In this document: one piece after another, positions 19,841 through 60,096 of the stretch
Position numbering within the stretch: position 1 is the stretch's first letter
Layout: each line of letters opens with the position of its first letter
Assembly (NCBI GenBank): GCA_903901425.1
Contig: CAIURC010000022.1
Location: forward strand, 1 to 60,096
DNA length: 60,096 bases
Direction of reading: 5' to 3'
Origin: an uncultured Spartobacteria bacterium
Lineage (GTDB): Bacteria > Verrucomicrobiota > Verrucomicrobiia > Chthoniobacterales > Chthoniobacteraceae
Notes under the pieces: generated by a model
The model's input: only the letters and a program-made list of their open reading frames with translations
Told to the model about the DNA's origin: nothing
The model's database searches: none
Position numbers and translations under genes: made by a program

Positions 19841-19866
19841 GGGTGGGTATCAAAAATTCCGCCGCC

Positions 19867-22586: not shown

Positions 22587-23216
22587 ATGGAACCCTGCCC
22601 TGAAGACGCCGATGAACCGCTCCCCCCGGAGGCCCAACACGTCCTTTTCCGGCCCGCAGACTTCTTTAAACGCATCGACCCGGATTCCCTGTTCCCAAAA
22701 CCCGCCCCTCTGGAACTTGATCTGGGCTGCGGCGAAGGGGCTTTCCTGGTCGAAATGGCCACCCGCCATCCCGACCGCAATTTCCTCGCCGTGGAACGAC
22801 TGCTCGGCCGCGTGCACCGCGTCTGCAAACTGGTCCACCGCCGGGGCCTCACCAACGTCCGCATTCTGCGGATCGAAAACTCCTATCTGGTCGAGCACAT
22901 GCTCCCGCACGGATCCGTTTCCGCCGCCTCCATCCTTTTTCCTGACCCCTGGCCCAAACGCTACCACCATCCGCGCCGCCTGATCCAACCGCCGTTCCTC
23001 CGCGCTCTGCACCAAGCCCTCGCCACCGGCGGCGAACTCCGGATCAAGACCGATGACCAGCCGTACTTCCTCTGGATGGAAAAAGCGTTCGCCCAAGTCC
23101 CGGAACTTAAACGAGTCGACTGGCCAGATGCCGGTCAGTTCCCAGTGACCAACTTCGAACGCCGTTTTCTGGATCAGGGCCTGCCCATCTACCGCGCCAA
23201 ACTCCTCAAACGCTGA
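22587..23216 (+). CDS. trmB: tRNA (guanine-N7-)-methyltransferase
   Basis: 209 residues from the ATG at 22587; an ATG at 22551 would add 12 hydrophobic residues. SAM motif I is LELDLGCGEGAFLVEMA, followed by FLAVERLLGRVHRVCKL. The family signature LFPDPWPKRYHHPRR contains the catalytic Asp and the tRNA-contacting basic stretch. The C-terminus carries TNFERRFLDQGLPIYRAK, diagnostic of TrmB. It makes m7G46 in tRNA. Its last 28 bp overlap the end of the opposite-strand comEC gene tail to tail. Confidence 0.93.
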   Translation: MEPCPEDADEPLPPEAQHVLFRPADFFKRIDPDSLFPKPAPLELDLGCGEGAFLVEMATRHPDRNFLAVERLLGRVHRVCKLVHRRGLTNVRILRIENSYLVEHMLPHGSVSAASILFPDPWPKRYHHPRRLIQPPFLRALHQALATGGELRIKTDDQPYFLWMEKAFAQVPELKRVDWPDAGQFPVTNFERRFLDQGLPIYRAKLLKR

Positions 23217-41366: not shown

Positions 41367-42743
41367 ATGAACTACCTCTCCCAGTCCTGGCTCATCGACC
41401 GCCGCCATGCCCTCAAGGCACTCGGCAGCTTTATTTCCCTCCCACTCCTCGAGTGCATGATCCCACTCCGGGCCGCCGAAAACATCGTCACCAAGTCCCC
41501 GCGCCGCAGCGCCTTCATCTATCTCGCCAACGGCGTCCACTCGCTCAACTATCAGATCCTGACCCCGGGCCGGGACTACCAGTTCTCTCGGTCGCTCAAA
41601 CCTCTTGAAAAACACCGGGAGTCGATCACCCCGATCAGCGGCCTGCACAATCCCGGCACCCTCAGCCATCATCACAACTGCATCAACTTCTGGCTCACCG
41701 GTGGGAAGTACGGTCCCGCCACACGCAACACGATTTCCGTGGACCAAAAAATCGCTGAACTCACCGCTCCCCACACCCGGTATCCGTCTCTGGAGATCGC
41801 CATCAATCAGGAGTCACTGGCATGGAGCGCCGATGGAGTCCAACTCCCGGCCATGCGCCGCTGCAGCGAAATCTTCGCCTCGCTTTTTGAGGAACCCAAG
41901 GGGGGAAAAACTGCCCAACGCAGGGCCCTCCGCCACAAGGCCAGCATCCTCGACGCCAACCTCGCCGAGGTCCGCCGTCTGGAACAAAAGATGGGCTCCG
42001 AGGACAAAGGCCGCCTCGATCAATACCTCACCTCCGTGCGCGAGGCCGAGATCCGCACCAAACGGGCGGACACCTGGTTGGACACCCCTCTGCCAGCTCT
42101 CTCGGACGCAGACCGCACCCGAACCAACCGCGACATCCCGCAGACCAAAGCCGGCGATTATTTCCGGACGGTGTACGACCTCATGGTGCTGGCCTTCCAG
42201 ACCGATGTCACCCGGGTGGCCACCTTCAGCCTCGGCGGCGAAGGCCAAGCCATCGCCATCCCCGAGATCGGGGTCACCGAAACCCGCCACCAGCTCAGCC
42301 ATCATGGCGGGGATACGGTGTTCATGGAAAAGCTCACCAAATACGACACGTTTGCCCTCGAGCAGTTCGGCTACTTCCTCACCCGGCTCTCCGAAACCAA
42401 GGACCTCCATGGGAAGCCTCTCCTAGGCACCACCATGGCCCTTTTTGGCAGCGGCATGTCCTACGGTCACAGCCACGGCAACGCCAACCTCCCCCTCGTC
42501 CTCGCCGGCGGTTCCGACCTCGGCCTCCGCCATGGCAGCCACTTGGATTTCAACCGCGAATCCAAGGACTTCAAAGGCTACGCGCTCGATACCGAGGGCG
42601 CGCTGACCCCGGCCCACTACCAGATCTGCTCGCGCCCCGTGAACAGCGATGCGCGCATGAGTAATCTGCTCCTTCTCATGGCCCAACGCATGGGCGTTGA
42701 AATCGACATGTTTGCCGACAGCAACAAGGTCGTTGCACTATGA
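41367..42743 (+). CDS. DUF1552 secreted protein
   Basis: 458 residues. The N-terminus has a twin-arginine-like leader, [18 protein letters not shown], with Arg12 and Arg13. The rest is one DUF1552 domain: the hydrophobic [10 protein letters not shown] after the leader, [40 protein letters not shown], and [18 protein letters not shown] toward the end. The family lies next to DUF1592 proteins across Planctomycetota and Verrucomicrobiota; its fold suggests a relative of sulfatase or alkaline-phosphatase-like DUF1501 proteins. The 3' end overlaps the first 442-residue paralogue by 4 bp (ATGA). Confidence 0.92.
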
Positions 42744-44068
42744 AGAAGTTCTTTGTTCCTCGTGCTTGGTTCTTGGTGGGTCCTTGGCTGGCGGTTCTCG
42801 CTTGTTCGTTCGTTGTCCAAGGAAATGCCGCCAACGAACAACCAAGCACAAAGAACCAAGAACACGGAACCGCCGTCTTCCGCCCCGAACCCGGCAAGTT
42901 CCCGCCGTTGGAAAAAGCTCACTCCTACCGGGGCGAACTCATCTTTGTAGATCATGCGAACCGCCGCGGCAGCATTCGCGTGCAGGGGTCGGGCAAGTTT
43001 CGGATGAACGACCCGCATCCGTTCGCCATGCTGCCCTATGGCATGGTGCGCTATCACGGGGCCCCGGCCGACTTGCGCGACATCCCGCTGGGCACCGTCG
43101 TGCACGTCCGCGCCTTTCTCCCGCCGGACCCGAAGTTCTCCGCCGTGCCGGTGCTGCCGGTGGACAACAAGAGCAGGGACGCGAATCACAGTCGTGGCGC
43201 GGGTATCTTCCCGGCCGAGAACCACGTTCTGCTGCTCGAGGACGAGCCCAGCCACTGCCAGCGCGAGAGACTTGTCTGGAAACTCAAGGATTTGGAAATC
43301 AAGAATCGTGAAGGCACGATCATCGCCAGCCGCGAACCGAAGCAGGGTGGCGATGTCAGGGCCGTCGACGAGACGCTGAACTTCGATGCCGCCACGCGTG
43401 TCTGGCGCGGTCGCGAGTGCCTCCGCATCGAACACCTCATCGCCGGGGGTATCTGGCCCGCCGAGGGAAAAAAGGCGCTTGGCGGCCAGGTCGTGAGCCT
43501 CGGAATCACCTGGAAGCCCACGCCGGGCGGTGTATTCACCCGCTTCCACCTCTCGGATATCTGGCTGGACGACGCTGCCATGGAAAACGCCGCGCTTCAT
43601 CAGACCGAAGTGCACAAGGCCTTCATCCGCAGCCGCTGGATCCCCGGATGGATCGATGCGGTCGAGTATGGCAAGTTCGGCCGTGCCACCGTCACCGCAA
43701 CGCTCTTCGGCGGCATGGACGCCTCGCTTTACGCCGAACTCAAACCCGGCATCGCCGCCTTGATGAACGGCGCCGAGAACACTCTCAAGCACACCGAAGG
43801 CGGCACCGCCGGCCCCACCCAAATGGCCGCGGGCGGAAGGATCGTCGAAGTCACGCCACTCCCCGAGAAAGCCCCGCCCGGCAGCGGCGGCCTCCAGATC
43901 CGCTTTGAAACGGATCTCATCACCGAAGGCATGCGCCCCAAACGCATCGTCAAGGTCCGCCCGCAGAGCTGGCCGGACCTCCACCTGCCCCGCGAAGAAT
44001 ACCTCGGCAATGGCGCTTCCAATCTCGACGAGCGATTCCCCACGCCCGCCATCTTCCCGAAATATTGA
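42740..44068 (+). CDS. secreted 442-residue protein of unknown family, paralogue 1
   Basis: 442 residues. A signal peptide ([20 protein letters not shown]) is followed by an Asn/Gln-rich spacer and then a region shared with the next gene. Shared blocks include [104 protein letters not shown] and AIFPKY at the end. The blocks HVRAFLPP and [14 protein letters not shown] suggest a beta-rich domain, perhaps OB- or cupin-like, but I cannot name a family. Its ATG overlaps the DUF1552 stop, so it belongs to that operon. The leader region holds short inverted repeats built on CAACGAAC and AAGAACC. Confidence 0.85.
42749..42869. repeat. inverted repeats spanning the signal-peptide codons of paralogue 1
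   Basis: An imperfect long pair: the left arm contains GTGCTTGGTTCTTGG (about 42762-42776); the right arm contains CCAAGCACAAAGAACC (42842-42857). An inner perfect 8-bp pair GTTCGTTG/CAACGAAC lies at 42808-42815 and 42832-42839. The sequence looks like runs of AAGAACC and its complement. Confidence 0.55.
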
Positions 44069-44075
44069 TCCCGTT

Positions 44076-45404
44076 ATGAGACCGTTCCTTGTTCCCCGTT
44101 TGCGGTTCGCAGTTCCCACCTCCCTGCTGGCCCTTGCTTGCGCTTTCACCGCTCACTCCAACGCCGCGGAGGAACCAAGCACGAAGAACCAACCACCAAG
44201 AACCGGCGTAGCCGAACCCTTCCGTCCTGAGCCGGGAAAATTTCCGCCCCTCGAAAAGGCGCACTACTACGAAGGGGAGCTCGTGTTTGTCGACCATGCC
44301 ACCCGGCGGGGCAGTCTCCGGGTTCGGGGCACCGGAATGTTTCACCGGAACGACCCGCATCCTTTCGCCCTGCTACCCTACGGCGTTATCCGCTACCACG
44401 CTGCACCTGCGGATCTCCGGGATATCCCGCTGGGAACCTATCTTCATGTGCGGGCTTTTCTCCCTCCCGACCCTCGGACGTCGTCCGTTCCGGTTCTGCC
44501 TATCAACAACAAGGACGTAGACGCCAACCACTATCGCGGGCTGGGAGTCTTTCCGGCCGAAAACCATGCGTTGCTGCTTGAGGACGAACCCAGCCACTGC
44601 CTGCGCGAGGGGCTTGTCTGGAAACTCCAGGAGGTGGAGATCAAAAAGGAGGAAAACCTCCTTCTCGCCACCCGCGAATCCAAGCAACCGCAAAGCACAC
44701 AGGCGACTCCCGAAAAGTTGACCTTCGATTCGGCCACCCGATTTTGGAGGGGGCGCGAGTGTTTGTCCCTCAAAGAGTGGATCACAGAGGGTCACTGGCC
44801 TGCCGAGGGGAAGAAGACCTTGAATGGTCAACCGGTGCTGCTCGGCCTCTCTTGGAGACCCACCCCCGACGGTATCTTTACCCGTTTTCATGTCTCTGAC
44901 ATCTGGCTGGACGAAACCTCCATCGAACGCGCCGCGGCCAATCAAGCCGAAACCCACAAAGCCTTCATCCGCAGCCGCTGGATGCCGGCATGGGTGGACC
45001 ACGTCGAATATGGAAAGTTCGGGCAGGCCACCGTGACGGCCACTCTCTTTGGTGGCATGGATCCCTCGCTCTACGCGGATTTCACGAAGGGGACCCAAGT
45101 CTTCATGAACGGTGCCGAAAACACCTTGAAACACACGGCGGGTGGATACGGACCCGCCCACATCGCGTCCAAAGGCCTGCTCCTCCAGGTCACACAGGCA
45201 TCGGGCGAAATTCCACTCGGAAGCAGTGGGATCCAGATCCAGTTCGACACCGACCTCGTCATCGAAGCCATCCGCCCCACTCGCATTGTGCGCGTTCGTC
45301 CCGCCAGTTGGCGCGTGGTTCAACTGCCGCGCGAGGAAATGCTCGGCGACCAAAACAATCCCCAAGACCGCTTCCCCACCCCTGCCATCTTTCCAAAATA
45401 CTGA
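44076..45404 (+). CDS. secreted 442-residue protein of unknown family, paralogue 2
   Basis: 442 residues from the ATG at 44076, which opens a signal peptide ([20 protein letters not shown]); the open frame upstream of it is only overlap with paralogue 1. It is collinear with paralogue 1 over its whole length, roughly two thirds identical by eye ([69 protein letters not shown]). It follows 7 bp after paralogue 1, so it arose by tandem duplication and is in the same operon. The spacer after the leader again reads [11 protein letters not shown], the trace of the same AAGAACC-type sequence. Function unknown. Confidence 0.85.
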
Positions 45405-45464: not shown

Positions 45465-46745
45465 ATGTACCCCCGACTCCTCGCATTCCTTCTCTCCCTT
45501 TCTTTTCTCCATGCTGCGCCCCCTGATCTCTCCCAAATCCGCTCACAGAGCGACCTCGAGGCCCTGATTTCCGCCACCTCTGAAGCCGCACTGAAAAAGG
45601 CCCTTGCCGAGCAAGCAACGGCGATCCTTGCCGCTGCCCAGCAGCACCCGCATGTATCGGCGGTCATCCAAACCATCGAGAGCGCTCCGGGATCGCTCAT
45701 AAAGGTCAACACGACTCCCGAGCCCCTCAAAAAAGCCGTGGGCGGCGAACTCCCCCTCTTCGACACGCTCACGCAGGTCAACACCGGCATTCTCAACGGC
45801 AAAGCGCACGTTTACCGGAAGGCCGACGAAGATCCCTACGATGCCGCCTTCCTCGAGCATCTGGGCAACATACCGTCCCTCGAATCGGTCAAGATCGTCG
45901 CAACCAAGATCCAGGATTCATGGCTGCCTCCGCTGCTGAAACTCAAAAACCTCGAATCCCTCAGCATGGAGGGACGCGCTGTGGAGTTGCCGGGAAAACC
46001 CGCCCTTGGAGATCCAAGTCTGGAACGGCTCACGGCACTCACGGGCCTCCGGAAGCTCACCTCGCTGGAACTGGCCTATTTCGGAGATGCAACCGACGCC
46101 GGTTTGGAGCAACTCGCAGGGCTCACCCACTTGGAACGATTCACCTTCCGGGGCTCACCAGTGAAAGGGCACGCGTTCGAAAAATTCAAAGGCTGGACGA
46201 AGCTGAAGAGTATCAACTTCCACAGCAACAGCCTGGATGACGAGGGCTTCGGGCACGTCTGCCAAAACTTTCCGAACCTTGAGTTCATCAAGCTCTGGCA
46301 TTCCAAGCTGCTCACCGATGCCAGCGCTGAGAATCTCGGGAAACTCACCAAACTCACAGGTATCGAGATCAGCGCTTCCAAGGCCACCGCAGGCCTCCTC
46401 AAACACCTGCGCCAAGTGCCTCTGGAATACGCCGCGCTTGAATATGGCGTGAACGCCCCGGCGGCAGATGCCATCGCCACGATGAAATCCATCCCAACCC
46501 TGCGCCGCCTCAAACTCGGTGGCCCGCTCACTGACCCCGACCTCACCGAACTCGCCGGGGCCACTCAACTGCGCGAATTATCCCTCGAGTTGAGCGAACT
46601 GACCGCCGAACGCCTCCCGCAGCTCCAAGCCTTCTCTTTCCTCAAATCTCTGACCCTCACTGTCCGCCCCAAAAGCCTTTCCAACGAAGTGCAGAACCAC
46701 CTCAAAGCCCTCCTGCCAAACGTGGAAGTGAAGTTCGCACCGTGA
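45465..46745 (+). CDS. secreted leucine-rich-repeat-like protein
   Basis: 426 residues from the ATG at 45465 with a signal peptide (YPRLLAFLLSLSFLHAAPP). A helical N-terminal part (LEALISATSEAALKKALAEQ) is followed from about residue 130 by irregular LRR units: LESVKIVATKIQ, LKNLESLSMEGRAV, LRKLTSLELAYFGDATDAGL, LTHLERFTFRGSPV, WTKLKSINFHSNSLDDEGFG and LRRLKLGGPLTDPDL. It probably acts as a binding protein outside the cell. The stop overlaps a GTG that could start the downstream beta-helix frame, but the true start there is 120 bp later. Confidence 0.8.
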   Translation: MYPRLLAFLLSLSFLHAAPPDLSQIRSQSDLEALISATSEAALKKALAEQATAILAAAQQHPHVSAVIQTIESAPGSLIKVNTTPEPLKKAVGGELPLFDTLTQVNTGILNGKAHVYRKADEDPYDAAFLEHLGNIPSLESVKIVATKIQDSWLPPLLKLKNLESLSMEGRAVELPGKPALGDPSLERLTALTGLRKLTSLELAYFGDATDAGLEQLAGLTHLERFTFRGSPVKGHAFEKFKGWTKLKSINFHSNSLDDEGFGHVCQNFPNLEFIKLWHSKLLTDASAENLGKLTKLTGIEISASKATAGLLKHLRQVPLEYAALEYGVNAPAADAIATMKSIPTLRRLKLGGPLTDPDLTELAGATQLRELSLELSELTAERLPQLQAFSFLKSLTLTVRPKSLSNEVQNHLKALLPNVEVKFAP

Positions 46746-46867
46746 ATTCTCGAAACTCCCGCCCGGGGTTGTCGGGACAATTTCGGGCGTGGCATTGTCA
46801 CAACTCGAGCACCTTGTTTCTTGGCAGCCCGGAAACCCTCCCTTTTCCAAATCCGAGCACTGCCTCT

Positions 46868-47560
46868 ATGCCTCTCCTCCCGTATCTCCTCGCCCTCCTT
46901 CTCGCTTCCCACGCCCTCGCGGGTGAGATCTCCCGCAGCCCGCTGGTGCTTTCCAAAGGAGGCACGCCCGAGCACCCTGCGGTCTTCGATGGAAAAGGTC
47001 TCGTCATTGATCTGGGAACCGATGTGACCAATCACGCCTGGAAAAAAGAGGGAGACCTCTGGACCTCAAATGGGCCTCTCCTCCAGCGTCCTCCGCTCCT
47101 CGCAGGACAAACCGCCGGGCTCTTTGTCGATGAGCACCCCATCCCCATCCCCAGAGATCTTGAGAAGGAAAAGGCGCATCCTGAAAAAAAAGGGTTCTGC
47201 TACATCGACCCCGCCTCGCTCCGCCCCGGGCAGATGGGCTATGGGGAGGATGGGTCCCTCTATTTCCGGTGGCCTGAAAACCAGCCGCCGGGGTCAGCCC
47301 GCCTCGTGTTGCCGGCAAAGGCGGGCGTGAGCGCGGTCGTCATCGCCTGCTCGCACATCGTGGTGCGCAATGTGACCGCCATGCACGCCGGCAATGACGG
47401 CTTCAACATTCATAACGGTTGGACCGGGATTCGTCTCGAGAACATTCGGGCCCTTTCCAATGGCGATGAGGGCATTAGCGCGCATGACGAGGTGGAGATG
47501 ACTGTCGACGGCGCCGAGATCGCTTGGAATGGCTCGGCATCAGGGGGTGTTGCTGCTCAG
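46868..47560 (+). pseudogene. 3'-truncated right-handed beta-helix protein gene
   Basis: A signal peptide (PLLPYLLALLLASHALAG) starts at the ATG at 46868. The visible part has the leading domain and then parallel-beta-helix rungs with HIVVRNVTAMHAGNDGFNIH, NGWTGIRLENIRALSNGDEG and AHDEVEMTVDGAEIAWNGS, the start of a pectate-lyase-like helix. Near 47.54 kb the similarity stops after SASGG. The frame continues as non-helical, Arg/Gly-rich sequence that is the shadow of a WD40 gene. The gene is therefore cut off and joined to unrelated DNA. A functional product is unlikely. Confidence 0.75.
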
Positions 47561-48224
47561 AATCTGGCGCGAAAAAGGGGACCAGGTTTTCGAGCAGAAG
47601 GTGTTGCACTCGACCGTCGCCGCTCTGGAGTGGCGGCCGGACAGTGGAGGACTCGCGGTGGGCGGCTACAACGGGGTTTCGTTGTTCCGAATGAAGTCCG
47701 GGATCTGGGGGACGCAGCCATACGAGGAATTGGAATGGAAAGGCAGTGTGCTGGCGGTGGCATGGAGTCCCAGTGGGCGGTATGTCGCGGCCGGTTCGCA
47801 GGAATCCACCATCCAGTTCTGGAAACTCCCGTACCGCCACGGGGAGGCACTGGCGATGTCAGGGTACTCCACCAAAGTGCGTGAACTGGCCTGGGACGCG
47901 GAATCCCGCTGGCTGGCGAGCGGGGGCGGCGAACTGGTCACGGTCTGGGACGTGCGTGGGCGAGGGCCTGCCGGAACGCGCCCGCGCCAACTCGAGGGAC
48001 ACACGGAGCGGGTGTCGTGCCTGAAGTTTCAGAGAAAGGGTACCCGGCTTGCCAGTGGAGGACGAGACCGCCGGGTGTGCATCTGGGATCTTTCGGGATC
48101 GGGCGACCGCGGCCTGGAGCTGGAGTGGTCGGAACGTGTGTCGGTGCTGGAGTGGTCGCCGGACGGAGGCGCACTGGCTGTGGGAGGAAACGCCGGGGGC
48201 GTTCAGATCTGGGAAAATGCATGA
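47529..48224 (+). pseudogene. 5'-truncated WD40 repeat gene
   Basis: The frame can be read from an ATG at 47529, but real WD40 similarity begins mid-repeat at about LLLRIWREKGD and covers four or five repeats: LHSTVAALEWRPDSGGLAVG, GSVLAVAWSPSGRYVAAGSQ, TKVRELAWDAESRWLASGGG, GHTERVSCLKFQRKGTRLAS and VSVLEWSPDGGALAVGG. A propeller normally needs seven, so two or three repeats are missing at the 5' side, where the beta-helix gene ends. Its stop overlaps the ABC permease ATG by 8 bp, so it was the upstream member of a transport operon. Confidence 0.75.
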
Positions 48225-49164
48225 ATGGCTGGACATGTTCCGGCAGGAATTCGTGCAGCGGGCGCTCGTGGGCGCGCTGCTGGGTGGGTTTCTGAGTGGT
48301 TACCTCGGGGGCTGGGTGGTTCTGAGGAAAATGGCACTGACAGTGGATGCCATTTCCCATTCCCTGTTTGCCGGTCTGGCGGTGGCGGCAACCACGGTGG
48401 GGTTCTCCGCACCGGGCATGCTGCTGGGAGGTCTGTGTTCAGGCCTTTTTGTGGCAGGCGGCGCCGAGGTGGTCCGACGAACCACCCGGATCAAACGGGA
48501 TACCGCCATCGGAATCCTCTACACCGTGTCTTACGGGTTTGGTCTGATGGTGCTGGCCCGACATTCGTTCCGGCTTTCGATTGAGCACTGGCTGTTTGGC
48601 GACATCTTTTCACTTGCAGGCACAGATCTCGTCCAGTTGCTGGGGTGGACCCAGTGTGTCTTCCCAATCCTCGTGGCACTTGAAAGGCCTCTGGCATTGT
48701 GCTGCGTTGGCGAGGAGGTCGCCCGGAGCATCGGCATCCGGACGCGTTGCCTCAAATTTCTCCTGATGGCCGCCCTCCTGGGCACGGCGGTGCTGAACTT
48801 CAAGGTCGCCGGGGTTGTGGCCACGGTTTCCCTGCTAGTGGCTCCGGCTGCGACACTCTACCTCCTGACAGACAAATTTGCGCTGTTGCTTTGGGGAAGT
48901 GCCGCTCTCGGCGCGGGCGGAGCTGTGCTTGGGGTTGCCATCGCCAGCGTTCTCGAATCCGTTTCCGGCGGCGTCTGTATTGCCCTTGTGCAGGGCTGTT
49001 TTTTTCTCTGTGCACTGGTTTTTTCGCCGCGGTACGGCGTTCTGGCCTTGCTGAGAAAGGAGGATCATTACTGCGAGGAGTCCTTCTGGCGCTGGCACCA
49101 ACCACCCGGGGCGGCCCTGAGGAAAAACAGGCGCCTGGAGGGGATCGGTGCTGAGCCTCAGTAA
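48217..49164 (+). CDS. metal ABC transporter permease (ZnuB/MntB family)
   Basis: 315 residues with eight or nine membrane spans, starting at the ATG at 48217 that overlaps the WD40 stop by 8 bp. Family blocks: LVGALLGGFLSGYLGGWVVL, ALTVDAISHSLFAGLA with the conserved Asp and His, RDTAIGILYTVSYGFG, GDIFSLAGTD, and FKVAGVVATVSLLVAPAAT in the permease loop. It would move zinc or manganese into the cell with a binding protein and an ATPase. Neither partner gene is in the window; both may have been on the lost side of the 47.5 kb junction. The last 35 residues form a basic extension. Confidence 0.92.
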   Translation: MHEWLDMFRQEFVQRALVGALLGGFLSGYLGGWVVLRKMALTVDAISHSLFAGLAVAATTVGFSAPGMLLGGLCSGLFVAGGAEVVRRTTRIKRDTAIGILYTVSYGFGLMVLARHSFRLSIEHWLFGDIFSLAGTDLVQLLGWTQCVFPILVALERPLALCCVGEEVARSIGIRTRCLKFLLMAALLGTAVLNFKVAGVVATVSLLVAPAATLYLLTDKFALLLWGSAALGAGGAVLGVAIASVLESVSGGVCIALVQGCFFLCALVFSPRYGVLALLRKEDHYCEESFWRWHQPPGAALRKNRRLEGIGAEPQ

Positions 49165-49348
49165 CCGACTCGGCTGAAAGTGGCGCACACGCCTGGAGTC
49201 ACTTCTGTGGGGCCACCCTGCAAGTTTATCAGGGCCGCCCGCAGTCCTGTTCCAAACCCGTTTTTTTCTTCACAGCCCCAACGCAAACCCGTATCCACTT
49301 CCCGCGCTTCTGTAGGCAGTTTGTTTTCGCAGAGGCGGACCTTGAATC

Positions 49349-50902
49349 ATGAAGAACATTTCCCCTCTGTTTTATGCCTGCGCGGCCCTGTCCCTTCCCG
49401 GGATTTGCCACGCGGGAAAAGGCATTCTGGAAACCCGGCCGGGATTCAGACCCACCCTGGTGATTTCCGATACCCTGACGGACACCGTCCTGCGTTCCAT
49501 TGAACGGGAAGTGGATCCGGCGAACTCCGGGGACTCCTACGAGGACAGGAATGGCAACGGGGTTTTTGATGCTGGGGACGAACTGATCACAGATTCCGAT
49601 GGGGACGGCCAGTATGATGAGCCCGTGTATCTGACCCGGGTGAGCTACACCAGGGTTCCCATGCAGCGGTTGACAGCAAAGATCGTCGCCAGCCTCCGGG
49701 ATTTGGAGGGAGCTGATTTTGATTTCAGTTCGGTTTCCGTGGACACACCGGTTTCGATTCAGATCGGGGATTACAGTTTTTCAGGCCTGCTCGGGGAAGA
49801 ACAGGGGCGCGGTGTCTGGAGGAAGGCGGGCGCGCTGAACGGGGTTCCCTACGCGGCAGGGGATGCCAAACCCCTGGGAAACAGCGCCGTGTACGTTCTG
49901 GGTTCCCATGTCCGGCGGTTGGCAAAGGACGGCACGCCCCTGCTGGATCCCGTGGGCACACCGCTGACCCGTTTCAGAGAAGATGGCCGGATCCGGGTGG
50001 ATTGGAATGCCCGCCTTGGCCTAGTGCAGTTCACTGTTCAACTGCGTCTCTTGGACGATGGGAGCTTTGGAGCCACCCCGAGCTTTCTCGCAACCCGGCT
50101 GGCGGACTCCACCGAGTCCGGAAAACAGACGTTTAATCATCAGCCCATCCCGGTCCGGGTCCAGTTTGGCACTGCCACCGGGGAGCGCATTGTCTACGGG
50201 AAAGGCATCCGCCAAGCCAGCGCCCACAGGCTGCTCCCCGCTGAAACCCCGCTCCGCTCCATTGCGGTGCTGGGCGCCGCCGATCACCAAGCTCCCAAAC
50301 TGAGCCGGATGAATGTGCCGTCCCAGTCCACGGACGGGCACGTGAGTTTTTCCGGCACGTTGTCAGACCGACCGTCGCCGACTTTCCCGGGGCTCTTCGA
50401 GATCCCCGCAGAAGACTTGGCCGGGCCGACTTTGGAAGTTTACGTGAACGGGACTGGGGTCACCGACGGAAACGGAAACGTGGTGGGCGGTTTTCCCGTC
50501 GACACCTCGCTGTACTCCGAAGGCCGGTGCGAGTTCGGAGCAGCGGTGCAACTGGCGGAACCGCTCAACACATTGCGGTTGGTAGCGCGGGATGCCGATG
50601 GAAACCAGTCCGCGGGCACTTTCAGGGTTCGGGCGGGCAGCGGGTCCTCCGGGAGCAGCTCCTCCGGGAGCGTTGCCTTGACGAAAACCGGGTCGGGCTT
50701 CTTGGTCATCGGGCCAGGTAGCGGAGGGGTGGTGGTAAATGCAGGAGGCTCGCCTGTACCAAACCCGACGCAGGGCCAACTGATTCTGGGTGGCTCCGGA
50801 ACGGCTCCAGCCGGCACCGTCACCAACAACTCCGGCTTCCTGAATCTCTCGGGAGCCGCCGTACTGCCAAACCAAAATCCGGTTTTACCGCCCGGCAATT
50901 GA
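49349..50902 (+). CDS. secreted protein of unknown family with EF-hand-like calcium motifs
   Basis: 517 residues with a signal peptide (LFYACAALSLPGICHAGKG). Near residue 65 lie DRNGNGVFDAGDELITDSDG and DGQYDEP, dockerin/EF-hand-type loops with spaced Asp. The rest is beta-rich with no catalytic signature. Late features are LNTLRLVARDADGNQSAGTF, a cadherin/Ig-like strand set, then a Ser/Gly-rich linker (GSGSSGSSSSGS) and a Gly/Pro-rich end. Probably a calcium-stabilised adhesive or envelope protein; the family is not recognised. It stands alone, 180 bp after the permease. Confidence 0.7.
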   Translation: MKNISPLFYACAALSLPGICHAGKGILETRPGFRPTLVISDTLTDTVLRSIEREVDPANSGDSYEDRNGNGVFDAGDELITDSDGDGQYDEPVYLTRVSYTRVPMQRLTAKIVASLRDLEGADFDFSSVSVDTPVSIQIGDYSFSGLLGEEQGRGVWRKAGALNGVPYAAGDAKPLGNSAVYVLGSHVRRLAKDGTPLLDPVGTPLTRFREDGRIRVDWNARLGLVQFTVQLRLLDDGSFGATPSFLATRLADSTESGKQTFNHQPIPVRVQFGTATGERIVYGKGIRQASAHRLLPAETPLRSIAVLGAADHQAPKLSRMNVPSQSTDGHVSFSGTLSDRPSPTFPGLFEIPAEDLAGPTLEVYVNGTGVTDGNGNVVGGFPVDTSLYSEGRCEFGAAVQLAEPLNTLRLVARDADGNQSAGTFRVRAGSGSSGSSSSGSVALTKTGSGFLVIGPGSGGVVVNAGGSPVPNPTQGQLILGGSGTAPAGTVTNNSGFLNLSGAAVLPNQNPVLPPGN

Positions 50903-51165
50903 ACCGGTGCCGGGTCAAACAGCTTGAGTTTGAATGCCCCCGCTGGCATCCCTGACTTGAGGTTTTTCCGCCCTCCAGGCGCACCTCAGAACCCAGCCGG
51001 AACATCTCCGGATTCCTCAGGCGGCACCACCCAGCCGTGATACCCGGGCCGGCGCTTCCCTGACGCAGGTTGTCGTCGTGGGCACACTGGCGAGGTGTGG
51101 GATCCGTCTGCTCACTGCCGATTTCCCCCCGCCGATTCTCCCAAGGCTTCGCCCTGAAACAAATT

Positions 51166-52242
51166 CTAGCCGCCCCCGGTTCCCGCCGCACCCAGCTGTT
51201 CCAGCCGGGCTTCCATTGGCGGCACCGCTTCCGGGACCGTCTCCCAGATTTCCTCCATCCACCGGGCAATTGTGGCCCCGGGTTTGCCGGGAAAACGCTG
51301 ACCCACCAGCCGGTAAAGATCCCGGCGGGAGTCGAGATTGATCAGGAGCGCCAGAAAAAAGCGGTGCTCGGGTTCGTCGACCGCTCCGCGCAACCCGGCC
51401 AGCAGGTCGCGTTGCACAATTTCGTCGAGTGTCGGAAAAACGGCCTTGGCCAGGGAGGAGTGGCGTTTTTTGAAAACTTTTGTGGCGTTGTTCCAGAGGC
51501 CGCGGGAACGCAGGGCCGAGACACAGTTTTGCAGGATGAAAAAGCCGCGTTCGAAATCGAGGACGTCGAGCATCTCAAAGACGAGCTTGGGGAAACCGGG
51601 GTGTCCGGAGGCGTCCAGGACATCGAGCAGCTGTTTTCTGCGCTGGGTGAGGGAATCGTGATGGAACGGGTCGAGGGCGATGTGCGGGGGCAAATAAGTG
51701 AACTGCGGCCCCGTGCCCGGGCTCGTGTGGGTGCGGAGCACGACGGTAACCGACGGGGTTTCAAGATGGAAAAGGGCGTGGATGAATTCCGTGCCCGCCC
51801 GGATCGGGACGGTAGCGCCCGTGGGCAGAAGTTCGGACCGGAGCCGTTTCAGGGTGCCGGTCCGGAGATGGGCGGAAACGGGTTTGGGGTCGAGAAACCG
51901 GAAAGTGGAATGGAGGCTGGAGCCTTGGAGCACATGGAAGGCGCCATCGAACTCGTGCTGATGGATGTCGGTGGTGCCGTCCATCCAGAAAAGGAGCTGG
52001 ATGTACAGACGGGGATGATCGAACACCACCAGTTCGGGCTGGCCAAACCCGGACTGCGTCTGGAACGGCTGTTCTTCGGCCAGCAGGAAATCCTCGAGCA
52101 CCGTATCCAGATCGGCGTTCTGCGCGGGATTAGTCTCCTGCAGGAGCCGGGCCGCCAGAGCCGGAAACGCGCGCGGATCGAAATTCAGGGCCTGCCAAGA
52201 CTGGACGGCCCGGTTGCCCAGGGCGTGGAAAAAGGGGTTCAT
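51166..52242 (-). CDS. cupin-like (cysteine-dioxygenase-fold) protein of unknown function
   Basis: 358 residues, no signal peptide. A likely cupin metal site is DIHQHEFDGAFHVLQGSS (HxHxFxGAF) near residue 92, with a second strand pair FIHALFHLETPSVTVVLRTH. The N-terminal 80 residues and the C-terminal 180 are helical (KQLLDVLDASGHPGFPKLVF, RRDLYRLVGQRFPG). This suggests a non-haem iron enzyme or a sensor. It is the only minus-strand gene between 47.5 and 58.1 kb and has no operon partner. I do not recognise a named family. Confidence 0.7.
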   Translation of the reverse strand: MNPFFHALGNRAVQSWQALNFDPRAFPALAARLLQETNPAQNADLDTVLEDFLLAEEQPFQTQSGFGQPELVVFDHPRLYIQLLFWMDGTTDIHQHEFDGAFHVLQGSSLHSTFRFLDPKPVSAHLRTGTLKRLRSELLPTGATVPIRAGTEFIHALFHLETPSVTVVLRTHTSPGTGPQFTYLPPHIALDPFHHDSLTQRRKQLLDVLDASGHPGFPKLVFEMLDVLDFERGFFILQNCVSALRSRGLWNNATKVFKKRHSSLAKAVFPTLDEIVQRDLLAGLRGAVDEPEHRFFLALLINLDSRRDLYRLVGQRFPGKPGATIARWMEEIWETVPEAVPPMEARLEQLGAAGTGGG

Positions 52243-52347
52243 CAGATTTTGGGCAATCAGATCCGGAAGGCTCCGGAACGCGATTCCAAAATGAGGGCTG
52301 CATTCTCATCGCCGCAAACCTGTCCCCATGATACCTAAGACGCTTTT

Positions 52348-53637
52348 ATGAAGGAATGGTACTACGCACTCAACGGCGCTCAGAACGGACCAGTGGACGG
52401 AACCGAAATCCAGCGCCTGCGGGCCGCCGGAATTCTTGAGGACGAAAGTCTGGTGTGGTGCAACGCACTCCCGGAGTGGACCGCGTTCCGGTTTGTGCCA
52501 AAGGAGTTTTTTGAGGAACCGGCTCCGAGCGCAGAAACGGGCTTGGAAACTGCGGCTGGAATCGAGTCCGCACTGCCGGCGGGACAAACCGCGGTAGACC
52601 GCACGGAGCGCGAGTTGGCATTCGAGTTCAAAGGAGGCGCTGGCGAATATTTCCGGATCTGGATTGTGAACGTGGTGCTGACCCTCCTCACTTTTGGGCT
52701 TTATGCGGCATGGGCCAAGGTCCGCACCCGGCGTTATTTTTACGCCAACACTCTCCTGGGGGGTAAACCGTTTGACTTCACGGGGAACCCCGTGGCGATT
52801 TTGAAGGGAAACCTGATTTTCGGGGCGCTCTTCATTGGGTACAACCTGCTCCTCCAGTTTTATCCGATCGCAGCCATCGGGGCTTTTGGGCTGATGCTGG
52901 CGGTGTTTCCGTGGCTGATCTGGAAAGCGCTCCAGTTCCGGGCCCATAACACCGTGCACCGGAACGTCCGGATGCGTTTCCACGGAACTCTGGGGGAGGC
53001 ATACAAGGTCTATCTCGGGCTCGCTCTGCTCGTGCCGTTCACGCTCGGACTCATCCTGCCCTACCTCGGGTTCCGCCAGAAACGCTACCTGCTGAACCAC
53101 ATGGCCTGGGGCAACAGCCGGGCCGAGATGCGCGGCGAATCCGGGTTTTTCTACCTCACATTTTTCAAGGCCCTCGGGATTCAGGTTCTGGTGTTCATGC
53201 TGAACATTGCCCTCTGGATCGGTGCATTTGCAGGACTCAAACTCGCAGAAAAGGCGGACGGCAATCCTCCCTCGCTCATCTTCGCCCTTGTGGGTCTGGG
53301 GTCCTACCTCCCCATGTTTGCCGTGGCACTCTATTATCAGGTCAGGACTGGCAACTACGCCATCAACCTCACACAATGGGCCGGGGTCGGCCGGATCCGG
53401 TCCACGGTCCGGGCCCGGGACTTGCTCTGGATGTACTTGAGCAACGCGGTTGCCGTGCTTCTTTCCCTCGGTCTGCTGGCCCCATGGGCCAAGGTCCGGA
53501 TGGCCCGCTACAGAGCGAGCCGGACCCTGCTCGTGGTGTCAGGTGACCCGGACCAGGTCGCCCAGGAGGTGGCCCGGGAGGAGTCCGCCCTCGGAGACGC
53601 CGGCGCCGATGCTCTCGATGTCGAAGTCGGTTTTTAG
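52348..53637 (+). CDS. GYF_2-DUF898 membrane protein (YjgN-like)
   Basis: 429 residues. The N-terminal GYF_2 domain (KEWYYALNGAQNGPVDGTEI, LVWCNALPEWTAF) binds proline-rich peptides. It is followed by DUF898: GEYFRIWIVNVVLTLLTFGL, YAAWAKVRTRRYFYANT, and a second copy-like stretch TLGLILPYLGFRQKRYLLNH. About six membrane spans. DUF898 proteins are often encoded with M48 proteases, and here an M48 gene follows after 4 bp. Probable role in membrane-protein quality control or transport (inference from partnership). Confidence 0.88.
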   Translation: MKEWYYALNGAQNGPVDGTEIQRLRAAGILEDESLVWCNALPEWTAFRFVPKEFFEEPAPSAETGLETAAGIESALPAGQTAVDRTERELAFEFKGGAGEYFRIWIVNVVLTLLTFGLYAAWAKVRTRRYFYANTLLGGKPFDFTGNPVAILKGNLIFGALFIGYNLLLQFYPIAAIGAFGLMLAVFPWLIWKALQFRAHNTVHRNVRMRFHGTLGEAYKVYLGLALLVPFTLGLILPYLGFRQKRYLLNHMAWGNSRAEMRGESGFFYLTFFKALGIQVLVFMLNIALWIGAFAGLKLAEKADGNPPSLIFALVGLGSYLPMFAVALYYQVRTGNYAINLTQWAGVGRIRSTVRARDLLWMYLSNAVAVLLSLGLLAPWAKVRMARYRASRTLLVVSGDPDQVAQEVAREESALGDAGADALDVEVGF

Positions 53638-53641
53638 CCGC

Positions 53642-54685
53642 ATGACACTGCAAGGAACACTCTACGCCAGGAATTCGGCCCGGGCCACACCAGCTACAGC
53701 CCACCTGGAGGGGGACACCCTGCGCCTCTTCTGGGAGGACGGTCAGGACGTGCAGTCCATGGCCCGGTGTGAGCTTTCGGAACCCATGGGCGAAACGGCC
53801 CGAACTCTGGTTCTCCCCGACGGCCAACGCCTGGAGTTTCAGGATCCCGCGGCGCTCCGCGCACTGGCGGAATGGGAAACCGCCACGGGCCGGTCGTCGC
53901 TCTACGGCCGGGTCCATTGGCTTGAACAGCGCTGGGCGGCAGTGCTCGTGGCAGGTTGTCTGCTTCTGGCCGCACTCGGGCTGGGTTACTTCAAGGGGGT
54001 CCCGCTCCTCGCTGACCGCGTGGCCAGAAAGCTGCCTGATTCCGTGTCGGTCACCGTCACGGATCAGGCGCTCGGGATCCTGACAAAAATCCTGCGCCTC
54101 AAGGACTCCACGCTTCCGGCGGAGAGACGGGCGATCTTGGAGACCCAGTTCCGTGCCATGGCCGCGGAGATGGATCCCGGCAGCGGCCGGAACTACCGAC
54201 TGGTTTTCAGATCCACCCTGATCCCGAATGCCGTGGCTTTGCCGGATGGCCTGGTGCTGGTGACCGATAAACTGGTGGAGATGTCCAAGGACGACCGCGA
54301 AATCTACGGCGTGTTGGCCCACGAAATCGTCCATGTCCGGGAACGGCACGGGCTGCGGTCGGTCCTGCAGAACTCGGCCGTTTTCTTTGTGTGGACGCTT
54401 CTGAGCGGCGACATCTCCACCGTGGCAGGGGCAGGGGCGGCGGTGCCCACGGCGCTTGCGGAGTCCCGGTACAGCCGCCGGTTTGAGGAGGAGGCGGACC
54501 TCGGGGCAGCGGAATATATGGTGCGCGTGGGCTGGGGAACGGCGCCGCTGCGCAATATCCTGAGCCGGATCGATCCCGAGGACCGCCATCTGGGCGGGGT
54601 GGAGGAGATTTTTTCGAGCCATCCGATGACCGAAAAAAGAGCCCAGTTTTTCGACGCGTACGAGAAAAGCAGAAGCGGTCACTGA
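53642..54685 (+). CDS. M48-family membrane metalloprotease
   Basis: 347 residues from the ATG at 53642. An N-terminal cytoplasmic beta domain (about 90 residues) precedes a membrane span near 98-115 (AAVLVAGCLLLAALGLGYF). The protease domain has HEIVH in GVLAHEIVHVRERHG (zinc His pair and catalytic Glu), followed by the third zinc ligand in RRFEEEADLGAAEYM, and SSHPMTEKRAQFFDAY, the usual M48 C-terminal HP motif. Translationally close to the DUF898 gene (4 bp). It likely degrades misfolded membrane or periplasmic proteins. Confidence 0.92.
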   Translation: MTLQGTLYARNSARATPATAHLEGDTLRLFWEDGQDVQSMARCELSEPMGETARTLVLPDGQRLEFQDPAALRALAEWETATGRSSLYGRVHWLEQRWAAVLVAGCLLLAALGLGYFKGVPLLADRVARKLPDSVSVTVTDQALGILTKILRLKDSTLPAERRAILETQFRAMAAEMDPGSGRNYRLVFRSTLIPNAVALPDGLVLVTDKLVEMSKDDREIYGVLAHEIVHVRERHGLRSVLQNSAVFFVWTLLSGDISTVAGAGAAVPTALAESRYSRRFEEEADLGAAEYMVRVGWGTAPLRNILSRIDPEDRHLGGVEEIFSSHPMTEKRAQFFDAYEKSRSGH

Positions 54686-54696
54686 AGGGAGGACCT

Positions 54697-55719
54697 ATGA
54701 GCAAGATGCCGGTTCCTGGCGCGCCGTTGCGGTTGTTGCTGGCAACGGGGGCATGGGGATTCAGTTTTCCGGCGGCCAAAGCCGTCATGCTGGTGCAGGG
54801 CACCGTGCTGGAGGGGTGGCCGGACTGGTTTCAGGCGGGCCTGGTCTTGATGAACCGTATGCTGCTCGCCACGGTGCTGATGGCGGGATTGTACTGGCGG
54901 AATCTGGGGGCGATCCGCGCGTGCGAATGGCGCCAGGGAATTGAACTCGGGCTGTGCGGCGGGCTGGGGATGCTCCTGCAAACCGACGCCCAAGCCAGTA
55001 TCCCCGCCAGCAACTCCGCGTTTTTCACCCAGTTCACCTGCATCTTCGTCCCGCTGGTCGTGGCGCTGCGCGAACGCACGCTGCCTGCCCCGCGCGTCTA
55101 CCCCGCCTGCCTCATGGTGCTCGCCGGTTGCGCCGTTCTCAGTGGGGTCACCCTGGACCGACTCGGGTTTAGCCGGGGAGAATGGGAAACCATCGCCGCC
55201 GCCGCACTGTTCACCGCCCAAATCCTCGTCCTCGAACGCTCAGTGCACCGCGGAAACGACATGCGCAGCACCGCCACCGTCATGTTCCTCGTCAAAGGCG
55301 CCCTCTTTCTTCCCGTGGTCGCCGCCGGAGTTTTTTCAGGTACCGGGATCGGCACCGGCTTGAAGGAACGCGCCACCCTGTTTTTTTCCGTGTACGCGAA
55401 TGGCCCGGTGTTGGGGATCACACTGGCCCTGACGGTTTTCTCCACCGTGTACGGCTACGCAACGATGACCCGGTGGCAGTCTCACGTTTCCGCAACCCGG
55501 GCCGGGTTGATCTATGCGACCGAACCGTTGTTCGCAACGGTCTGGGCCCTGTTCCTGCCCGGTTGGTTTTCGGGCATGGCCGGGATCGGATACGCCAACG
55601 AACATCTCAGCCCCCAATTCTTTGCCGGGGCTGTCCTGATCCTGGCGGCCAACGCGCTTCTGCTCCGTGAAAACCGATCTCCTCAAGCATCGCACTCGCA
55701 ATCCGGCCCCGGTGCTTGA
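54697..55719 (+). CDS. EamA/DMT-family transporter
   Basis: 340 residues with ten membrane segments in two EamA halves: LRLLLATGAWGFSFPAAKAV opens the first, SNSAFFTQFTCIFVPLVVAL lies in the middle, and TRAGLIYATEPLFATVWALF is the second-half signature. A strong ribosome binding site, AGGGAGGA, lies just before the ATG, 11 bp after the M48 stop, so the gene continues that operon. Exporters of amino acids or metabolites; no substrate can be assigned. Base composition changes within the gene: about 55.0-55.3 kb is C-rich, unlike its flanks. Confidence 0.88.
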   Translation: MSKMPVPGAPLRLLLATGAWGFSFPAAKAVMLVQGTVLEGWPDWFQAGLVLMNRMLLATVLMAGLYWRNLGAIRACEWRQGIELGLCGGLGMLLQTDAQASIPASNSAFFTQFTCIFVPLVVALRERTLPAPRVYPACLMVLAGCAVLSGVTLDRLGFSRGEWETIAAAALFTAQILVLERSVHRGNDMRSTATVMFLVKGALFLPVVAAGVFSGTGIGTGLKERATLFFSVYANGPVLGITLALTVFSTVYGYATMTRWQSHVSATRAGLIYATEPLFATVWALFLPGWFSGMAGIGYANEHLSPQFFAGAVLILAANALLLRENRSPQASHSQSGPGA

Positions 55720-55991
55720 AGCGCAGGCGCTCGCCAAGACTCCGCCCCTGAAATTGCCCGGCCACACTGGGCTGAGTGCATGGAAAGCATCGATCCAGCT
55801 GATGCACCCAAACAAAAGATCGATTTCTCGCGCAGGCCACTCCATGCGCAGGATGGGACATGCAAAAACGCGCCCACCTCTTCAGCCATGCCGCTCTGGT
55901 TTCCCTGTGCGGTTCACACCTCGGGGCTGACACCGGCACAGGACCGCAAATTCCTGTCCCTGAGCCGGTCCGTTCTGGCAGGGTTTCCGTC

Positions 55992-56576
55992 ATGCCCCGG
56001 CCGGTCCTGTTGATCCACGGATTCAAGGATGACGCGCGGAAAATGGAACCCCTGCGCCGGCACTTGGAAAGCCGCGGATTCCATGCAGAGGCAGTGACCC
56101 TGAGTCCGAGTCTGGGTCAGGCCAGCCTTGAAGAACTCGCGGAACAAGTGGCCAGGTTCGCCCGCGAACGATTCGGCCCTTATGGCGCCATGGATCTGGT
56201 CGGGTTCAGCATGGGTGGACTCGTGGCCCGGTATTATGTGCAGAAACTCGGAGGCATGGACCGGGTCCGGCGACTTGTGACCGTGGCTTCACCGCATCAT
56301 GGCACCCTTCTGGCATGGTGCGTGCCGAACCCCGGCTGCCGCCAGATGCGGCCCGACTCGGCTTTTCTGAAGGATTTGAATGCCGACCAGGACTGGCTGC
56401 GGCGGGTGGAGGTCACAAGCATTTGGACACCGCTGGACCTGATGATTCTCCCCGCCTCCAGCTCGAGGGTGGAGGGCGCGCGGAACATCCGAAAATGGGT
56501 ACTTGCCCATCCGCTGATGGTGCTCCAGCGGAGTTGTTTGGAGTGGGTGACTGCCGCCCTTGAGGACGGGACCTAG
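55992..56576 (+). CDS. alpha/beta-hydrolase, PGAP1/lipase-like
   Basis: 194 residues from the ATG at 55992; an upstream in-frame ATG adds 44 residues without family features. Oxyanion region PRPVLLIHGFKDDARKM; nucleophile elbow DLVGFSMGGLVARYYV with Ser in GFSMGG; TVASPHHGTLLAW, typical of triacylglycerol-lipase/PGAP1 relatives; acid region TPLDLMILPASS; likely catalytic His in VLAHPLMVL. No signal peptide with this start. It acts on an ester of unknown identity. The 270 bp upstream hold no recognisable gene. Confidence 0.85.
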   Translation: MPRPVLLIHGFKDDARKMEPLRRHLESRGFHAEAVTLSPSLGQASLEELAEQVARFARERFGPYGAMDLVGFSMGGLVARYYVQKLGGMDRVRRLVTVASPHHGTLLAWCVPNPGCRQMRPDSAFLKDLNADQDWLRRVEVTSIWTPLDLMILPASSSRVEGARNIRKWVLAHPLMVLQRSCLEWVTAALEDGT

Positions 56577-56677
56577 CCGGGTTCGGCCTATTCTCGGGGG
56601 CGGGTGGTCCGGGAAGGCGCGTTTCCGCGTTGCCCGGCTTGCTCCGGGGCCGGATCTGAGTTAGCTTTCCAGACGCC

Positions 56678-58102
56678 ATGACTCCCCCCCCTGTCTGGTT
56701 CGTCGGGCTGCTTTCTCTTGCAGCCCTGTTTCCCTCCTCCTCTTTCGCCGCCCCGCTCCGGGCTGGAGCTGCCGCGGTGGATGTGACGCCCACGGAGTTT
56801 CCCGTGAACATGCCGGGCGGATTCAGTGCCAACACGGCCACTTCGGCCCATGATCCCCTGCACTCGCGGGCTCTGGTGCTGAGTGACGGCACACAAACCG
56901 TGGCTCTGGTTGTGGTCGACAACCTCGGACTGAGCCCGGACACGGTGGAACTGGCCAAGCAGCGGGCGTTCGAGCGCTGCGCCATTCCGCCGGCCCGGAT
57001 GCTGGTGGCGTCCACACACACCCATACCGGGCCGCACTCGGGAGTCAGCGAACGCTCCTCCCCGGCCCAAGTCCGGTACCGGGACAGGCTGGTGGACGGC
57101 ATTGCAAGTTCGATTGCCGATGCCCACGCGGCGCTCCGACCGGCAGCGGTTGGGACGGCCTCGCACCCACTCCCCGATGAGGTTTTTAACCGGCGCTGGT
57201 TTTTGAAACCGGGCAGAATGCAACCCAACCCGTTCGGCACCCTGGACCAGGTCAAAACCAATCCGGGAACAGGCGCAGATCTGCTGGAACGCCCGGCGGG
57301 TCCCACCGACCCCGATCTGATGATCCTGTCGGTTCAGGACGAGAAGCGGAAGCCCCTTGCGCTGTTTGCCAACTACGCGTTGCACTATGTCGGCGGAAGC
57401 CCAGCGGGCCAGATTTCCGCGGATTATTTCGGCGAATTCGCCCGGCTCATGCCGGCCCGGCTCCGAGCTCCCGAGAACTTTGTGGCGATGCTGTCCAATG
57501 GCGCATCAGGCGACATCAACAACATCCCGTTTACCGTGCTCAGGCCGCCGCGGGAACCCTTTGAACAGATCCGGATCGTTGCCCAGAAAGCTGCCGACGC
57601 CGCATGGCTGGCCCACCGCAAAATCGAGCGCCATGTCCAGGATGTGCCGCTGGCCATGCTCGAGCGGGAGATCCGCTTGGAATTCCGGAAACCCTCCCCG
57701 GAACAGGTGGAGGCCGCGCGGGCCGTGCTGGATCTGAAGGCTCCGGAGGATCTGGAAAAGCTGCCCCGCCTGGCGCAGAACTATGCGCGGAACACCCTGG
57801 GGGCTCTGGACCGGCCGGAATCCATCGCCGTCAAGGTCCAGGCGCTCCGGATCGGAGACACTGCGGTCTGTGGACTGCCTTTCGAGGTGTTTGTGGAGAT
57901 CGGCTTGGAAATCAAAAAGCGCAGCCCCTTCCAAAACACCGTGGTGGTTGGACTCGCCAACGGCCGGCACGGCTATCTCCCCACCCCTGCACACCACGAA
58001 CTGGGGGGATACGAGACTTGGCTCGGCACCAATGTCGTTCAGAAGGATGCTTCCGAACGGCTCACCGCCGCACTCTTGGAAATGCTCGGGGAACTGCGTT
58101 GA
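56678..58102 (+). CDS. secreted neutral/alkaline ceramidase-like protein
   Basis: 474 residues with a signal peptide (VGLLSLAALFPSSSFAAPL). Neutral/alkaline non-lysosomal ceramidase N-terminal domain: GAAAVDVTPTEFPVNMPGGF at the start, zinc-binding VASTHTHTGPHSGVSE, and MLSNGASGDINNIPF, equivalent to the nucleophile region. In this phylum such proteins are numerous, and many probably act on non-ceramide amides. Shorter than true ceramidases (about 650) because the C-terminal Ig-like domain is absent. It is the last gene before the base-composition change at 58.1 kb. Confidence 0.88.
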   Translation: MTPPPVWFVGLLSLAALFPSSSFAAPLRAGAAAVDVTPTEFPVNMPGGFSANTATSAHDPLHSRALVLSDGTQTVALVVVDNLGLSPDTVELAKQRAFERCAIPPARMLVASTHTHTGPHSGVSERSSPAQVRYRDRLVDGIASSIADAHAALRPAAVGTASHPLPDEVFNRRWFLKPGRMQPNPFGTLDQVKTNPGTGADLLERPAGPTDPDLMILSVQDEKRKPLALFANYALHYVGGSPAGQISADYFGEFARLMPARLRAPENFVAMLSNGASGDINNIPFTVLRPPREPFEQIRIVAQKAADAAWLAHRKIERHVQDVPLAMLEREIRLEFRKPSPEQVEAARAVLDLKAPEDLEKLPRLAQNYARNTLGALDRPESIAVKVQALRIGDTAVCGLPFEVFVEIGLEIKKRSPFQNTVVVGLANGRHGYLPTPAHHELGGYETWLGTNVVQKDASERLTAALLEMLGELR

Positions 58103-58211
58103 CCCCCGCCCCCCTGCGGCACGGTTCCAGCCTTTGTCTGGCATTCCCCCCTGGCCCCAACGGTCCGTTTGACACCCTCACCGCCCCCCCCTAGGGTCTG
58201 GGCTTCTCCGA

Positions 58212-59114: not shown

Positions 59115-60096
59115 AAATCCTTTTTGTAGACGACGATGCCGCACTCTCCGAGTCGTTGGTCGCCCTGATGTCGCAGGAATTCCCCGCGCATTCCTTCCAG
59201 ACCGCTTCCTCCGGCGAACAGGCCCTGTCCCTGCTTGACGCGTCCACGGACCTCCTCATGACCGACGTCGTCATGGAACCCATGGACGGGTTCACCCTCA
59301 AAACCGCCGCTCTTCAGCGATTCCCCTCCCTCTCACTCCTCTTCCTGTCCGGATACGACCTCTCCGATTACCGGGCCCTGATTGAGCCCCACCGACTCCT
59401 GCAGAAACCCCTCGATCTCGAGGCTCTCCGGGACGCGCTCGCTGAGGTGCTCGCCCTGCGGACTCCTCCCGCGGCCCCGGCCACTCCCATCCCGGTTTCC
59501 CTCCCCGACACAGAATCCGAAGCCGAACGCAAACTGCAGACGGTCAGAATCCCTGCCCCTAAACCGGCATCGGGTGTCCGGGTCCAAACCCCGCTTCCGG
59601 CTGCCACTCAGGAACCTGCCACTGTCCGGGTTTCCCCAAACCGGCCGGTTGCGGCTTCCATCCCAAAAGCGGCAACCCCGCAGATTGCGGCAGCGCCGGC
59701 CGAGAACGCGCCTCAGACGCCAAAAACTCCAGTCCTTGATTTCGGCATGGACGCCGCACCGGTGCGTGCCGTCCGCCCGGCTCCTGTGACGCCCGTCCCG
59801 CAGGCAAGGCCGGGGGTTCCCACAGCCAAGCCATCAGCCCCCGCAGTGGCGACCCCCGTTCCCAGACCCACTCCGGTGCCAAAGCCTGTCGCTCCCGCGG
59901 CTGCCACTCCCGTTCCCCAAGCCACTCCGGTGCCAAGGCCCGTTGCTCCCGCGGCTGCCACTCCCGTTCCTCAGGCCACTCCGGTGCCAAGGCCCGTTGT
60001 TCCCGCGGCTGCCACTCCCGTTCCTCAGGCCACTCCGGTGCCAAAGCCCGTTGCTCCCGCGGCTGCCACTCCCGTTCCTCAGGCCACTCCGGTGCC
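59111..60096 (+). CDS. response regulator receiver with long Pro/Ala repeat tail (3' end outside window)
   Basis: At least 328 residues; open at the right edge. The receiver domain spans about 1-120: MKILFVDDDAALSESLVALM (acidic pair), LLMTDVVMEPMDGFTLK with phospho-acceptor Asp, LLFLSGYD and the Lys in RLLQKPLDLEAL. No helix-turn-helix is seen. The rest is Pro/Ala/Val-rich and ends in an exact 18-residue repeat (PRPVAPAAATPVPQATPV) encoded by 54-bp units. It may tether the receiver to a distal domain outside the window. It is translationally coupled to the TPR-like protein. Confidence 0.85.
   Translation, partial: MKILFVDDDAALSESLVALMSQEFPAHSFQTASSGEQALSLLDASTDLLMTDVVMEPMDGFTLKTAALQRFPSLSLLFLSGYDLSDYRALIEPHRLLQKPLDLEALRDALAEVLALRTPPAAPATPIPVSLPDTESEAERKLQTVRIPAPKPASGVRVQTPLPAATQEPATVRVSPNRPVAASIPKAATPQIAAAPAENAPQTPKTPVLDFGMDAAPVRAVRPAPVTPVPQARPGVPTAKPSAPAVATPVPRPTPVPKPVAPAAATPVPQATPVPRPVAPAAATPVPQATPVPRPVVPAAATPVPQATPVPKPVAPAAATPVPQATPV
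59873..60096 (+). repeat. 54-bp tandem repeat, four full units and a partial
   Basis: Units start at 59873, 59927, 59981, 60035 and 60089 (partial), each beginning CCGGTGCC. Differences are single bases (for example AAGCCT/AGGCCC, GCT/GTT). Each encodes 18 residues in frame. It continues past the window edge. A degenerate earlier unit precedes it. Confidence 0.95.

Follow-up and report, generated by a model that had tools for sequence, protein, structure and literature searches.

Prokaryotic members of one CobW subfamily (COG0523, subfamily 5) are reported to cluster with WD40 genes and with znuABC, forming zinc clusters of the CobW-WD40-znuABC type (Haas et al., 2009; PMC2770081). Deletion scars left in bacterial chromosomes by illegitimate recombination are recognised by two truncated genes that adjoin in different frames, by scarce or absent common sequence at the junction, and by the loss of the intervening genes. 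Similar abrupt junctions within genes, accompanied by a change of composition, occur in assembly chimeras. Metagenome assemblies often contain chimeric contigs, and one benchmark counted a mean of 2.6 (SPAdes) to 22 (MEGAHIT) of them per genome (PMC11261854). Misassemblies have been flagged by disruption of GC skew where whole chromosomes were compared with a norm for the genus (PMC7717575).

The window, that is, the whole stretch of DNA analysed here, is the complete contig C22 (60,096 bases, free of Ns) from a member of the Chthoniobacter group (Chthoniobacterales). The draft genome bin to which it belongs comprises 224 contigs and 5.1 Mb, has a listed completeness of 96% and contamination of 1.9%, and shows a short-read-like fragmentation. 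At 47.55 kb the window joins the remnants of two unrelated genes, and the features that bear on this junction are as follows.

45465..46745, plus strand: LRR-like gene, conserved in relative G041, where it likewise precedes the beta-helix gene
46868..47553, plus strand: remnant of a secreted beta-helix gene, 5' part, about 229 codons, with 85% protein identity to the intact G041 gene
47553..47556, no strand: breakpoint, where beta-helix homology stops and WD40 homology starts
47554..47884, plus strand: nonsense tail of about 110 codons, an out-of-frame run-on of the beta-helix frame
47556..48224, plus strand: remnant of a WD40 gene, 3' part, about 222 codons, recognised by homology to intact genes in G001, G014, and G016
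47556..58150, no strand: block of near-zero skew and native composition, delimited by third-codon-position G-C skew (skew3), tetranucleotides, and GC3
48217..49164, plus strand: metal ABC permease of the ABC-3/ZnuB type (Pfam PF00950), whose start overlaps the WD40 stop

The left side of the junction is colinear with contig C328 of G041, in which the LRR gene is followed by an intact beta-helix gene (L167:2553-3419) that encodes 288 amino acids and matches the Pfam Beta_helix family. The DNA alignment between the window and G041 runs at high identity to base 47553 and then ends sharply; immediately after the breakpoint, the window encodes Ala-Gln, whereas four relatives in the beta-helix alignment have a conserved Asp-Val. 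The start of the protein is signal-peptide-like as judged by eye, and no sequence relative of the protein was found in the PDB at E <= 1. The preliminary description had the 5' half of a beta-helix gene meeting the 3' part of a WD40 gene out of frame. The join, the two truncations, and the mismatch of frames stand; however, the beta-helix remnant is well over a half, since about 229 of the 288 residues are kept and only the final 59 or so codons are gone.

On the right side, the WD40 remnant shows 54-59% identity to the intact genes of 343-357 aa in G001, G014, and G016, three close relatives that are themselves metagenome bins, and it keeps about 222 of some 343 residues, corresponding to the last two thirds, while the first 117 or so codons are gone. 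The Leu-Arg-Val/Ile-Trp that the window shares with 3/3 of these relatives follows Gly-Arg-Thr in the relatives, but not in the window. A CobW GTPase gene lies directly upstream of the WD40 gene in all three relatives; the corresponding part is missing from the window. The arrangement in G014 and G016 comprises two tandem CobW-type GTPase genes immediately before the WD40 gene (L060 4055-6684 and L061 1635-4266). By analogy with the zinc clusters of subfamily 5, the CobW gene directly upstream of WD40 in the relatives and the overlap of the WD40 remnant with a ZnuB-type permease in the window would fit a right side that represents the tail of a CobW-WD40-znuABC-type cluster. The difference from those putative counterparts is that the window is without CobW, the WD40 5' part, and the partners of the permease. 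The preliminary description had looked to the rest of the genome for these partners, and a complete set does exist on contig C103. However, the bin contains two ZnuB-type permeases and a single ZnuA-type binding protein, and thus the permease at 48217 has no binding protein of its own in the bin.

The gene-to-gene junction is real, precisely placed, and not due to chance. Each flank follows an intact relative as far as one shared, sharply defined point: the left homology stops at 47553-47555 and the right one starts at about 47556. This places the breakpoint at 47554 +/- 2, the one place where the two remnants meet in different frames. As judged from the conserved residues of the relatives, the flanks could have a few bases in common at most, an overlap that is expected for end-joining and is too short for a k-mer (de Bruijn) misjoin. 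In the WD40 alignment, MAFFT also matched GVLL immediately before the breakpoint, across a 7-residue gap; this match was judged to be due to chance, because the bases concerned belong to the beta-helix homology. Neither remnant contains internal stops, which fits a recent event. A functional gene fusion was rejected, since the frames mismatch and the translation of the nonsense tail aligns with no relative past the breakpoint.

The preliminary description had suggested that the missing gene halves might lie elsewhere in the genome; searches of the bin, with its listed completeness of 96%, recovered neither of them. The missing beta-helix end was found with neither distant- nor close-relative queries, and the searches for the orthologous CobW gene and for the missing initial third of WD40 gave nothing beyond generic WD40 genes and, on contig C28, a distant CobW. 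In addition, the bin contains no second copy of the 46-49.3 kb region and no direct repeat spans the junction, and on these grounds a repeat-mediated misjoin was rejected.

The composition step at the junction was measured as skew3 on the top strand with 10-kb flanks. At 47.5 kb the skew changes from -0.34 to +0.03, which is the largest step of the contig, and the gene means are -0.31 left of the junction, +0.02 at 47.5-58.1 kb, and -0.23 at 58.2-60.1 kb. The earlier observation that the top strand is C-rich left of the junction irrespective of gene strand is borne out by minus-strand genes such as those at 18863-21372 and 23189-25552 (-0.49). The proposed coincidence of a composition flip with the two broken genes survives as a coincident step, but not as a reversal of sign, and the right block is not G-rich as had been described. 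Some of the bias on the left is specific to particular genes: those at 41.4-46.7 kb have a C-rich coding strand in most relatives too. Likewise, the minus-strand gene at 51.2 kb, earlier cited in favour of a strand flip, itself has a C-rich coding strand, as do most of its orthologs (-0.32 to 0.00), and is therefore weak evidence for such a flip.

For comparison, we sampled ~1.1 Mb of the same genome, with 3002 positions spread over 19 further contigs or parts of contigs. An absolute step of at least 0.36 with 10-kb flanks occurs at 5.2% of these positions, and with 5- and 8-kb flanks the fraction of such large steps is 2-3%. Separate places with equal or larger steps include 95.8, 124.5, and 137.5 kb of C5, 38.8 and 56.8 kb of C28, 21.5 kb of C12, and 15.8 kb of C42, and several of the other large steps of the genome lie between predicted, intact-looking genes. 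Thus, the skew step alone is not beyond chance, being common elsewhere in the genome. In the shorter samples taken from relatives, such steps were not seen in G001, G002, and G003, were rare in G006, and reached 4-11% in G014. It follows that, in a genome of patchy skew, a step within a draft contig says little for a misjoin and should be weighed against the genome's own step frequency. Contigs C5, C28, C12, C42, and C78 display sharp skew steps or sign changes every few tens of kb (stretches L036, L066, L067, L100-L113, L092, and L118-L120). At the strongest sampled step (-0.29 to +0.38), a REP-associated-transposase-like gene was noticed by eye (C5 95330-96388).

The origin of the right block was assessed by a classifier based on strand-symmetric tetranucleotides, which compared this genome with five relatives under contig-wise cross-validation and placed 86/86 of the genome's own windows correctly. 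The right block was assigned to this genome, at a distance to the genome centroid (0.165) that is among the smallest (own 5% quantile, 0.166), and its GC3 of 0.731 is close to the genome mean of 0.737. Both blocks are therefore native in composition, and a distant contaminant is excluded by tetranucleotides and GC3, measures with which a very close strain would still be compatible.

We lean towards the explanation that recent non-homologous (illegitimate) recombination, in its simplest form a deletion, produced the junction in the Chthoniobacterales population sampled. Such a deletion would have one end inside the secreted beta-helix gene, past codon 229, and the other inside the WD40 gene of a putative zinc-homeostasis cluster (CobW-WD40-metal ABC permease). 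The DNA lost between them would have carried the beta-helix end and the WD40 start, and probably also the CobW, binding-protein, and ATPase genes; a pair of out-of-frame remnants and a permease without partners would be what is left. The skew step may then reflect flanks drawn from places that differ in strand composition. A deletion would be expected to give a sharp junction without overlap and to remove both gene ends, and the abutting truncated genes, the scarcity of common sequence, and the failure to find the intervening genes liken the locus to known deletion scars. Three points speak against a deletion. Chimeras are frequent in metagenome assemblies; the joined flanks must differ in skew, and steps that large are present at only about 5% of positions; moreover, no relative has the two genes near each other, so that, in contrast to known scars, the pre-deletion order is not seen. 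Orthologs of both genes together at E <= 1e-35 were found in none of the other family genomes searched. Should the junction be real in the chromosome as well, one part of a zinc-homeostasis cluster is gone from this population.

The main alternative reading is that the assembly misjoined, at 47.55 kb, two pieces of this genome or of a very closely related strain, and that both genes are intact in the cell. The fragmented draft bin, the frequency of chimeric contigs in metagenome assemblies, the otherwise undecayed state of both genes, and the coincidence of the skew step with the junction are all in line with such a chimera. However, the region has no second copy in the bin, the true continuations of the two genes were not found there, and the flanks differ from typical chimeras in that their strand-symmetric composition is equal and no shared k-mer is evident. 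Composition thus disfavours a chimera between genomes, and the lack of shared sequence disfavours a repeat-driven misjoin, so that the earlier suggestion of two wrongly joined contigs loses its version with different organisms and becomes unlikely, if still a serious prospect, in its within-genome version. A foreign right block, whether a contaminating contig or a recent transfer from another species, could be suspected from the closest relatives, which differ between the WD40 fragment (G001, G014, G016) and the beta-helix gene (G041, G002, G006). Nevertheless, the identities of the right-block genes are at the family level expected if they are native, and a foreign origin, rejected by the tetranucleotide classifier and GC3, is highly improbable.

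An inversion or translocation would have moved the right block beside the beta-helix gene within the chromosome, leaving the other gene halves at a reciprocal junction elsewhere. The unlike skew on the two sides and the native composition of the block agree with this scenario, and both missing ends would go unseen together if the reciprocal junction fell into a gap of the assembly. On the other hand, the skew of the right block is no mirror image of the left, turning negative again from 58.2 kb, comparable steps are frequent in the genome, and a reciprocal junction with the missing gene ends was not found in the bin; without a mirror image and a reciprocal junction, a simple inversion is disfavoured. 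We therefore retain the breakpoint between broken genes from the preliminary description, and consider the inverted or moved block, for which neither sign inversion nor the missing ends offer specific support, to be improbable. It is also conceivable, albeit quite doubtful, that this lineage rearranges its chromosome unusually often, in which case the strand composition would be a true mosaic and the 47.55 kb junction one scar among others.

Two further observations concern other parts of the window. At 42740-45404, two neighbouring paralogous proteins of 442 aa without a Pfam family are encoded next to DUF1592/DUF1552 genes, and multi-copy arrays like this pair are present in G002, G003, and G012. 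The contig end falls inside a 54-bp tandem repeat (59855-60096; 4.5 copies, 93% matches), which sits in the Pro/Ala/Thr/Val-rich tail of a response-regulator-like gene and is the likely cause of the assembly break at this end.
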